Shown: one piece after another, positions 7,855-13,926 of the stretch | How positions within the stretch are numbered: the first letter of the stretch is position 1 | Layout of the letters: each line of letters opens with the position of its first letter | NCBI RefSeq assembly: GCF_023806485.1 | Contig: NZ_JAMSLR010000012.1 | Span: 1 to 64,000 of the forward strand | Length of the DNA stretch: 64,000 bases | Reading direction: 5' to 3' | Origin: Thermalbibacter longus | GTDB taxonomy: Bacteria > Chloroflexota > Chloroflexia > Thermomicrobiales > Thermomicrobiaceae | The notes under the pieces: model-generated | The model's input: the letters and a program-made list of their open reading frames with translations, nothing else | What the model was told of the DNA's origin: nothing | The model's database searches: none | Program-made: the position numbers and the translations under genes

Positions 7855-9174
7855 ATGAGCCTACCAAGATGCTCATGTAATCAAAATAAGGATAATGGAT
7901 GGATAAGCTTTTCTTTGCGTGATCTTGCTGAATATATTAACGGTCGTGTTACTAGATCTTCAGAGCTGAGATCAGATGGTGTACCAGTGATCAAAATTGC
8001 TGAATTGAACCACGGCATAACCGAGACAACCGATCGAGTTCCTGCGGAGGTCGTGCAAGACGTTCACCGAGTTACACAAGGGGATGTTCTCTTTTCGTGG
8101 TCAGGTTCGGTGGGTATTTATCGGTACAGCGGTCCTCTTGGGGCGCTAAATCAGCACATCTTTCGTGTTGTGGCGAAACCGGGTGTCGATCAGGTATTTC
8201 TTTATTATCTATTGCTCTCGCAGATAGATACCTTTCGGTCATATGTCGAAGCCAAGAGAACAACCATGGGACATGTCACCTTGCGAGATCTTGAGAGGAT
8301 TCACGTCGAGGTTCCTCCCCTCCCCGAGCAGCGCGCCATCGCCCACATCCTGGGCACGCTGGACGACAAGATCGAGCTGAACCGCCGGATGAGCGAGACG
8401 CTTGAAGCCATGGCGCGGGCCATTTTCAAGGCGTGGTTCGTCGACTTCGAGCCCGTCCGCGCCAAGATGGAGGGTCGCTGGCGCCGTGGTGAGTCCCTAC
8501 CCGGTTTTCCCGCCCACCTCTACGACCTCTTCCCCGACCGCCTGGTCGACTCTGAACTGGGGGAGATTCCGGAGGGGTGGCGGGTGGGAACACTCGGCGA
8601 CATAGCCGAGAATCCGCGCCGGAGTGTTCAACCACACGAAATTGACCCAACTACTCCTTACATCGCCCTTGAGCACATGCCCAGAGGCCGCTTCGCACTC
8701 TGGGAATGGAGTACGGCAGACGAGCTAGAAAGTAACAAGTTCGAGTTCAAACGGGGCGAAATCCTGTTCGGGAAACTCCGCCCGTACTTCCACAAGGTCG
8801 GGGTCGCTCCGGTGGACGGCGTGTGCTCAACCGACATCGTGGTTGTGAAGCCGAAGAAAGGGGCGTGGTTCGGTTTCGTACTGGGTCACATCTCAAGCAC
8901 AGCGTTTGTTGATTACACGAGCGCGGGCTCGACAGGAACCCGGATGCCACGCACAAGCTGGAATGACATGGCGCGTTATCAAGTGGCCCTTCCTCCAGAA
9001 AAAACTGCAGAGAGTTTTACTGCGGCGATTCGGGCTCCTATTGACCGAATGATCGGAGCTATTCATGAATCCCGCACTCTCGCCGCCCTGCGGGATGCAC
9101 TGCTGCCCAAGCTCATCCGCGGCGAGATTCGGGTGCACGATGCAGAGCGATTCCTCGCGGAGCGGGGACTATGA
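7855..9174 (+). CDS. hsdS: Type I restriction-modification specificity subunit
   Basis: A 439-residue specificity subunit that recognises the bipartite DNA target and holds the methylase and nuclease subunits. It has two target-recognition domains, about 15-150 and 230-390, each followed by a conserved helical region. The central one includes PPLPEQRAIAHILGTLDDKI and AIFKAWFVDFEPV; the C-terminal one ends LRDALLPKLIRGEIRV. The ATG at 7855 is preceded by AAGGAGGGG. The first target-recognition half (about 7880-8290) is markedly AT-richer than the rest of the gene, consistent with domain exchange by recombination. The stop overlaps the next start by four bases (ATGA at 9171-9174). Confidence 0.93.
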   Translation: MSLPRCSCNQNKDNGWISFSLRDLAEYINGRVTRSSELRSDGVPVIKIAELNHGITETTDRVPAEVVQDVHRVTQGDVLFSWSGSVGIYRYSGPLGALNQHIFRVVAKPGVDQVFLYYLLLSQIDTFRSYVEAKRTTMGHVTLRDLERIHVEVPPLPEQRAIAHILGTLDDKIELNRRMSETLEAMARAIFKAWFVDFEPVRAKMEGRWRRGESLPGFPAHLYDLFPDRLVDSELGEIPEGWRVGTLGDIAENPRRSVQPHEIDPTTPYIALEHMPRGRFALWEWSTADELESNKFEFKRGEILFGKLRPYFHKVGVAPVDGVCSTDIVVVKPKKGAWFGFVLGHISSTAFVDYTSAGSTGTRMPRTSWNDMARYQVALPPEKTAESFTAAIRAPIDRMIGAIHESRTLAALRDALLPKLIRGEIRVHDAERFLAERGL

Positions 9175-9884
9175 CCTTTGATCCAGAACGTCACCATCGC
9201 CGATCGATCCGCCTGAAAGGACACGATTACGCGCAGGCAGGGGCCTACTTCATCACTATCTCCACGCACGATCGCGCATGTCTCTTCGGGCAGGTGGTCG
9301 ATGACACGATGGAGATGAGCGACTACGGGCGCATCGTCGAGGAGGAATGGCTGCGGTCGTCCGAGGTGCGCCGGGAGATCCTGCTGCATGCCGGCGAATT
9401 CGTCGTCATGCCGAATCATGTCCACGGCATCGTCTGGATCGTCGATACCGGTAGGGGCGACCGGCCGGTCGCCCCTACCGAATTCATTACCCAAACCAGG
9501 CCGGGCACCGCTGCGCGCGCCAACGGGCCTGCGCCCCGTTCGCTCGGCGCGTTCGTTGCCGGGTTCAAGGCCGCCACCACGAAACGGATCAACCAGCGGC
9601 GCAACACGCCCGGCGTGCGGGTGTGGCAGCGCAACTACTACGAGCATGTCATCTGCGATGAAGCATCGCTCGACCGTATCCGTCGCTACATCGCCGAAAA
9701 CCCGATGCGCTGGGCGTGCGACCCGGAAGACCCGCAGGCTATCGAGACCGAGCTAGAGGAGCTCTGGAATCCCTCATGCGGCATGAACCACCGCGTGAGT
9801 GTGCCTGGTCAGGCAGCACGCGGCCGCTCGGGATCATCCATAGGCAGAGCTCTGCGAGACGAGTTTCAGGAGCGCGGACCATGA
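9171..9884 (+). CDS. REP-associated tyrosine transposase (RAYT, Y1/TnpA_REP)
   Basis: A 237-residue single-stranded-DNA transposase of the Y1 HUH family, of the type linked to REP palindromes. The metal-binding HxH motif is in MPNHVHGI (His83, His85). The likely catalytic tyrosine is Tyr157 in WQRNYYEHV, and both appear intact. Between them a linker at residues about 93-103 is encoded by a perfect 32-base palindrome matching a REP copy elsewhere in the window. The gene begins inside the hsdS stop (ATGA) and its own stop overlaps the next start (ATGA at 9881-9884). It is therefore co-translated in the restriction operon rather than lying in its own transposon. No flanking target duplication was noticed. 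Confidence 0.9.
   Translation: MTFDPERHHRRSIRLKGHDYAQAGAYFITISTHDRACLFGQVVDDTMEMSDYGRIVEEEWLRSSEVRREILLHAGEFVVMPNHVHGIVWIVDTGRGDRPVAPTEFITQTRPGTAARANGPAPRSLGAFVAGFKAATTKRINQRRNTPGVRVWQRNYYEHVICDEASLDRIRRYIAENPMRWACDPEDPQAIETELEELWNPSCGMNHRVSVPGQAARGRSGSSIGRALRDEFQERGP
9449..9480. repeat. REP-type palindrome inside the RAYT gene
   Basis: A perfect 32-base palindrome with its centre between 9464 and 9465; the left half is CGGTAGGGGCGACCGG. It is in frame and encodes the linker residues around GRGDRPVAPT of the transposase. A near-identical 28-base copy, GTAGGGGCGACC-AG-CCGGTCGCCCCTAC in structure, lies at 58877-58904. Confidence 0.9.
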
Positions 9885-13700: not shown

Positions 13701-13926
13701 AGTGCTCGGCGAGCCGACCCTGCGCCAGATTGCCCAGGAGGTCCTGCGGATCGTGCGCGAGAATGTCACCATAGACTGGACGGTGCGGGAGAACGTGCGG
13801 GCCCAGCTCCGCGTGCTGGTGAAGCGGGTTTTGCGACGCTACGGCTATCCTCCCGACCAGCAGGAGCGAGCAGCGCAGACGGTGCTGGAGCAGGCGGAAG
13901 TCTGGTCGGAGCGCTGGGCTGCCTGA
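10780..13926 (+). CDS. hsdR: Type I restriction-modification endonuclease/translocase subunit
   Basis: The restriction subunit, a DNA translocase with a nuclease domain that cleaves unmodified DNA away from the recognition site. The N-terminal nuclease carries the PD-ExK motif in RPDIVLF and AIIELKN (about 146-163). The superfamily 2 motor has the Walker A motif HTQGSGKS near 325 and the DEAH box near 431. FTGTPLE and the later [19 protein letters not shown] are further helicase motifs. The C-terminal half is the helical HsdM-binding region. The ATG at 10780 has AGGGG five bases upstream. A GTG at 10774, overlapping the preceding stop as GTGA, is an in-frame alternative. At about 1,048 residues it is of normal length. 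Confidence 0.94.

Follow-up and report, generated by a model that had tools for sequence, protein, structure and literature searches.

A RAYT transposase gene and a DUF3800 gene between hsdS and hsdR of a predicted type I restriction–modification operon in Thermalbibacter longus

The window, a stretch of 64,000 nucleotides of Thermalbibacter longus (NZ_JAMSLR010000012.1, positions 1 to 64,000), holds a RAYT transposase gene and a DUF3800 gene between hsdS and hsdR. As predicted from its genes, the operon is a type I restriction–modification (R–M) system. We favour, with moderate confidence, the reading that the RAYT is a RAYT/REP passenger that prefers R–M operons, and that the DUF3800 protein is an accessory nuclease in the hsdS–hsdR slot of the operon. 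RAYTs are transposases of a kind that is usually domesticated. The R–M home and a REP palindrome within the reading frame offer two concrete handles on their role in the host and on their long persistence.

The operon and its surroundings

The type I gene set is complete. HsdM, HsdS and HsdR each carry their own domains, in open frames on one strand (Table 1), and the hsdR product scores 606.2 bits with the NCBIfam model TIGR00348. The original prediction had linked hsdS, RAYT, DUF3800 and hsdR through two ATGA overlaps and a GTGA or two-base junction. This linkage was confirmed, the last junction being a GTGA overlap if hsdR starts at GTG 10774 and a 2-base gap if it starts at ATG 10780. All four frames are open, and a fresh insertion that broke the window operon was rejected on this ground. 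Since hsdM ends 162 nt 5' of hsdS, the tightly linked set is S-RAYT-DUF3800-R.

Table 1. Features of the operon region (window coordinates).
Feature	Position	Strand	Remarks
MntA-like nucleotidyltransferase	4929..5252	+	5' of operon; NTP_transf_2 58.6 bits
hsdM	5674..7692	+	start TTG 5674 or ATG 5716, ATG 5716 likely; N6_Mtase 358.9 bits, HsdM_N 105.7 bits
hsdS	7855..9174	+	Methylase_S 100.2 bits; stop overlaps RAYT start (ATGA)
RAYT (TnpA-REP-like Y1 transposase, 237 aa)	9171..9884	+	Y1_Tnp 24.3 bits
REP, perfect 32-nt palindrome	9449..9480	.	in RAYT frame, loop after HUH motif; 16-nt arms, 100% complementary
DUF3800 protein, 298 aa	9881..10777	+	DUF3800 25.7 bits; ATGA overlap with RAYT
hsdR	10774..13926	+	HSDR_N 160.6, SWI2_SNF2 268, T1RH-like_C 450.9 bits

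At its C terminus, hsdM continues without a frame break into a DUF4160 domain (residues 596–657, window 7460–7692, 40.6 bits in Pfam). The toxin model DhiT scores 32.7 bits on this part, under its cut-off of 100; HsdM with DUF4160 is a possible HsdM–toxin-like fusion. The protein encoded upstream of the operon at 4929..5252 reaches 45.9 bits with the MntA_antitoxin model, under the cut-off of 60. A HepT query against the window gave no credible match for a partner, nor for a remnant of one. MntA–HepT adjoins hsdS in the relatives G006 and G442.

The GC content is 46–47% in the first part of hsdS (window 7700–8300) and 49–55% across DUF3800 (window 9900–10700), compared with 64–67% in hsdM and hsdR and about 74% in alr. 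The pattern over the operon region is that of a mosaic island. A promoter and terminator scan gave nothing above shuffles, and the Rfam and tRNA scans of the window were empty at the thresholds applied.

The RAYT protein

The window RAYT passes the Pfam Y1_Tnp cut-off of 23 bits. It scores 60.8 bits with NCBIfam NF047646 (REP-associated tyrosine transposase), which fails the cut-off of 80. A profile of RAYT relatives matches the E. coli TnpArep structure 4er8 (E 1.4e-4). All 12 rows of an alignment have H83, H85, Y156 and Y157, in keeping with the earlier observation that both the HxH and the Tyr residues are intact. The protein bears a C-terminal extension that most relatives do not have; that it was copied from the end of hsdS was considered and rejected, no match at the DNA level having been found. 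Neither transposition ends nor an empty site was found for this RAYT.

The same genome contains a second RAYT match, an N-terminally truncated frame with a 4-nt overlap with a type ISP gene. Among nine close RAYT pairs, dN/dS is 0.13–0.51 in eight and saturated in one. These values indicate some constraint, which is not required of a mere passenger and so counts against the passenger reading. RAYT relatives were also found in four plasmid records and one phage record, none reaching 80% query coverage, and the single plasmid neighbourhood inspected was not R–M.

RAYT genes next to R–M genes

Compared with random placement, RAYTs adjoin hsdR about 170 to 220 times as often, as seen in two genome sets counted separately. 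The first set comprises 158 genomes of the class, searched for both RAYT and hsdR. Among the matches listed (112 RAYT places), a RAYT lies just 5' of hsdR on the same strand for 6 of 68 hsdR genes (pair window 2 kb; expected 0.027, P 5e-13). The other classes of the phylum gave 6 of 117 hsdR genes with a RAYT among the matches listed (101 RAYT places; expected 0.035, P 2e-12), each pair within 58 nt. Opposite-strand pairs within 2 kb are absent from both genome sets among the matches listed. The DDE_Tnp_1 transposases of the class served as a control; among the matches listed, none lies less than 2 kb from hsdR, and the nearest is at about 15 kb (by eye). Against a preference for R–M genes, 62 of the 68 class hsdR genes have no adjoining RAYT among the matches listed.

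The neighbours of RAYTs were classified for 140 copies, drawn from the class (best 60 of 111 places) and from named relatives (best 80 of 572). An R–M gene lies at most 300 bp from 30 of them (13 in the class, 17 in named genomes of eight phyla), as judged by home-built HMMs seeded from the same loci, which consequently miss other R–M types and undercount short remnants. No R–M neighbour was detected within 300 bp of the other 110, where some contigs end, and this too counts against a preference. Of the 166 ORFs lying 300 bp or less from a RAYT, 30 are R–M genes, as against 3 of 310 at a distance of at least 3 kb (P 6e-12). The loci behind these counts are not all independent, since some strains may be present, exactly or nearly so, both as a class genome and as a named record (L067 is identical to L151). 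In the query alignment A1, 9 of the 12 rows had an R–M gene or remnant within 300 bp. Locus L116, with no N-terminal half, was left out of the counts, and the two RAYTs of L072 were counted apart.

All 75 pairs of an R–M gene and a RAYT (35 RAYT copies) are co-directional. The 5' R–M partner within 300 bp is HsdS in 12 cases, type IIG in 5, HsdR in 3, HsdM in 2 and ISP in 1. Type I, type IIG and type ISP systems all occur among the partners, type IIG for instance in G006, Thermoflexus and Latescibacterota. Because RAYTs recur in R–M operons of distant bacteria, these operons look like a favoured home.

The overlaps themselves say less. Of the 31 R–M-linked RAYTs whose junctions were inspected by eye, 22 begin with ATGA or GTGA, so that a 4-nt overlap is in part inherent. 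RAYTs also overlap by 4 nt with genes outside R–M, for an amidohydrolase, a DNA polymerase IV-type protein, a SpoU methylase and RNase_T. Both points weaken the ATGA overlap as proof of adaptation. Among the remaining RAYTs, 118 neighbours were scanned and proved to be mixed (in Pfam, ABC_tran 6 and AAA_21 5; in PADLOC, mad3 7). At L105, L106 and L152 a short hsdS-tail-like stretch lies 5' of the RAYT, and a complete hsd operon was not detected beside it.

A REP palindrome in the RAYT frame

The palindrome in the RAYT gene is the single REP-like motif in window 3001–16000, and REPs flanking the RAYT, as in a classical REPtron, were not found in that region. It matches a dispersed REP of its own genome. 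The core occurs at 17 places when up to 3 mismatches are allowed, with 6 exact copies among them; the control with the reversed pattern gave 0. The general GTAG pattern has 12 copies (control 0). A near-perfect second copy of the palindrome lies at window 58877–58904, and a half copy at 59419–59430. The REP within the gene encodes residues in or beside a modelled low-confidence loop (96–117; pLDDT of the whole RAYT model 64.7).

This position recurs among RAYT genes. Of 141 genes, 120 cleared the motif filter. A strong inverted repeat occupies the loop that follows the HUH motif in 73 of these 120, compared with 9 for the remainder of the gene and 6 for codon shuffles (best of 20). Most of the 73 loop palindromes have the form GTAGGGGC...GCCCCTAC with differing stems, and they are mostly of REP type. 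The general REP pattern has 5 to 72 copies in RAYT-bearing genomes (controls 0) and 1 copy in G114, which has no RAYT among the matches listed. In G006, the loop stem of the type IIG-linked RAYT recurs elsewhere in the genome; that of a second RAYT was found only within that RAYT among the matches listed.

REPs also lie within hsdS at loci L062, L078, L064 and L072, two of them near the middle of the protein. In G006 they fall at residues 201 of 430 and 225 of 452, and in G027 one lies close to the beginning of an hsdS that is truncated. Other R–M genes (IIG, HsdM and HsdR) contain REPs as well. The window hsdS has no such REP.

The DUF3800 protein

The DUF3800 protein clears the Pfam cut-off of 21 bits and matches the PADLOC candidate PDC-M04A at 33.3 bits. 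The best structural match of its model (pLDDT 76.9, pTM 0.81) is the RNase HII 1eke_A, with a Z score of 12.4, an rmsd of 4.0 and 174 aligned residues; Foldseek gave RNase HII at E 6e-5. Residues D13, D136, E181 and D197 are invariant in a five-row alignment and are candidate catalytic residues. The RNase H-like fold proposed earlier is borne out by the model, together with the repeated position beside R–M genes, and the protein is likely an RNase H-like nuclease.

Relatives of the protein occur in 6 of the 158 class genomes, and a profile search of 400 genomes from the phylum finds them in 13. Among the 10 genomes that have close relatives of it, 8 place the gene beside R–M genes or their remnants, a count that excludes the distant half-length matches of G240, G247, G310 and G331, which are not beside R–M genes. 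It lies away from R–M genes in G122 and G250, which counts against the association. On a plasmid of Methanothermobacter tenebrarum (L230, 4001–4822), an N-6 DNA methylase gene lies directly 5' of a DUF3800-type gene. For the Methanothermobacter plasmid pFZ1, a named R–M gene next to DUF3800 was not seen in the PLSDB gene table, which is incomplete.

Gene order in relatives and history of the locus

The exact order hsdS-RAYT-DUF3800-hsdR was found in none of the relatives examined outside the window, so the conserved synteny across divergent genomes that would have supported a functional unit was not found. G006 and G442 have the order hsdS-DUF3800-RAYT-hsdR (loci L026 and L219), and a copy of the hsdS 3' end follows DUF3800, immediately ahead of the RAYT. 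In G006 the RAYT contains a stop and hsdR is fragmented; in G442 hsdR is spread over two ORFs. In G013 a RAYT and the start of hsdR follow a broken DUF3800. DUF3800 precedes hsdR in G301 and follows a type IIG gene in G273. G052 (L072) has an hsdM-RAYT-hsdS-RAYT-hsdR operon with two closely similar RAYTs, one of which carries a long (VGAKN)n tandem repeat in its loop.

The original prediction would have been hurt by close relatives with the same operon and neither insert, together with a single occurrence of the arrangement, and here the outcome is divided. G007 and G089 have hsdM and hsdS-x-DUF3800-hsdR with an open hsdR and no RAYT in between, while the same-genus G116 and G117 keep a RAYT and hsd remnants at the chromosomal site of the window operon. 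Across relatives, the hsdS–hsdR slot is taken by DUF3644, GmrSD_N/DUF262 or DUF3800 as alternatives, and besides DUF3644 and GmrSD_N these operons contain DUF4411, Peptidase_M78, Fic and HepT.

The chromosomal site of the window operon has alr on one side and a response-regulator gene on the other. At this site G116 retains the tail of hsdS, a RAYT with 50% identity to that of the window and an hsdR remnant (alr is 92.6% identical). In G117 the site holds MntA and HepT along with the tail of hsdS and a RAYT that is broken. No hsdR was found in 40 relatives at E 1e-100. Broken hsd genes are frequent near RAYTs (G006, G012, G013, G027, G116 and G117).

On a tree of 125 RAYTs, obtained by a quick search with SH-aLRT support only and many open forks, the R–M label changes 27 times, against a shuffled mean of 27.0. 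At least 12 changes are forced by the starred branches. In the WOR-3 locus L178, a RAYT splits a type ISP gene, the pieces of which match residues 10–615 and 624–1032 of an intact ISP. The scattered label, the split gene and the RAYTs that outlast decayed hsd genes point to repeated entry and not to one stable recruitment. A single ancient recruitment is rejected by the scatter of the label. The stable recruitment that had been read from the precise junctions is not upheld either, given this scatter, the ISP gene split elsewhere and the ATGA coupling at genes outside R–M.

Inheritance also seems to have left traces. The last 13 nt of the RAYT are the first 13 of hsdR in G027, G012 and the Nitrospira locus L168 (the last by eye), which looks like shared descent of some operons, not fresh insertion. 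At several loci the hsdS tail, RAYT and hsdR are joined alike across genomes. Entry and inheritance thus both seem to occur.

Possible explanations

In the reading that we favour, the RAYT gene belongs to the REP/RAYT group and codes for a predicted Y1 (HUH) single-strand nuclease. It would be a mobile or passenger gene that repeatedly enters R–M genes, most often right 3' of the specificity-bearing gene. Once inserted, it would be translated together with them. The protein would act on REP hairpins, probably by cleavage, and one of these hairpins lies within its own coding sequence. The R–M operon may in turn give the RAYT spread and persistence. Either party may gain from the arrangement, and the window RAYT itself may be mobile. 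DUF3800 would most likely be an auxiliary anti-phage or anti-plasmid nuclease.

A similar distribution could arise if RAYTs inserted anywhere and the dispensable, often exchanged R–M operons let such insertions survive and spread, with neither targeting nor function. RAYTs are indeed coupled to varied genes, and the hsd genes near them are often broken. However, DDE_Tnp_1 transposases should profit from the same niche and keep their distance from hsdR among the matches listed, and a niche alone leaves the strict co-direction and the place after the specificity gene unexplained. We consider this account unlikely, if still to be reckoned with. Greater doubt attaches to the idea that the R–M system uses the RAYT as a working part, for example by nicking REP hairpins that lie within specificity genes or close to them, thereby reshuffling hsdS or swapping specificity domains. 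It draws on the specificity domain present in 18 of the 23 5' R–M partners, the REPs in hsdS of G006 and in the truncated hsdS of G027, the hsdS tail duplicated before the RAYT in G006 and G442, and the operon of G052 with its two RAYTs. Yet the window hsdS is free of such a REP, IIG, HsdM and HsdR genes contain REPs as well, open hsd operons exist without a RAYT (G007, G089), and RAYTs accompany genes outside R–M too. A closely related proposal, in which RAYTs placed 3' of a specificity gene act with the R–M system and cut REP hairpins in their own gene and in hsdS, diversifying or mobilizing specificity, appears quite improbable to us.

It is very unlikely, in our judgement, that R–M, RAYT and DUF3800 form an extended defence module acting jointly against phage. 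The four genes do occur together in the window, in G006 and in G442, with remnants in G013, and the frames of the window are all open. But the gene order varies, the RAYT of G006 has a stop and its hsdR is in pieces, hsdR of G442 is split in two ORFs, and RAYT and DUF3800 are each found in R–M operons without the other. A parasitic link would make defence operons the vehicles of REP systems. A functional one would instead connect a transposase with changes in restriction specificity.

Comparison with known systems

A literature search, with preprints, supplements and most subscription journals outside its scope, found no report of RAYTs in R–M operons and none of a REP inside a RAYT frame. Passages of PMC3733652, PMC6006769, PMC2817692 and PMC8266576 describe neither. 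The Rickettsia RPEs, and the intragenic REPs of PMC3733652, resemble the present case in that a palindrome lies in frame inside a protein gene. Passages of PMC3733652 name other target genes, whereas here the palindrome is recurrent at one RAYT loop.

The window RAYT shares with the known RAYT/TnpA-REP proteins (IS200/IS605-like Y1) the HUH and Tyr residues, the profile match to 4er8 and the population of GTAG-type REPs. In contrast to the known ones, where REPs lie at the flanks, the REP is inside the gene, and the setting is an R–M operon. Hairpin-bearing ends on the left and right, as IS200/IS605 insertion sequences have, were not found at the window RAYT; the related RAYT of L178 splits a gene. 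The DUF3800 protein is akin to PADLOC PDC-M04A through its domain match; the window subgroup is distinct in lying mostly beside R–M genes.

Type I R–M operons with accessory genes between the hsd genes are familiar, RloA/RloB and others being examples. The present operon has the same hsdM-hsdS-x-hsdR plan, with co-directional extra genes that in relatives are DUF3644, GmrSD_N/DUF262 and DUF3800. It differs from them in that the extra gene here is a RAYT.
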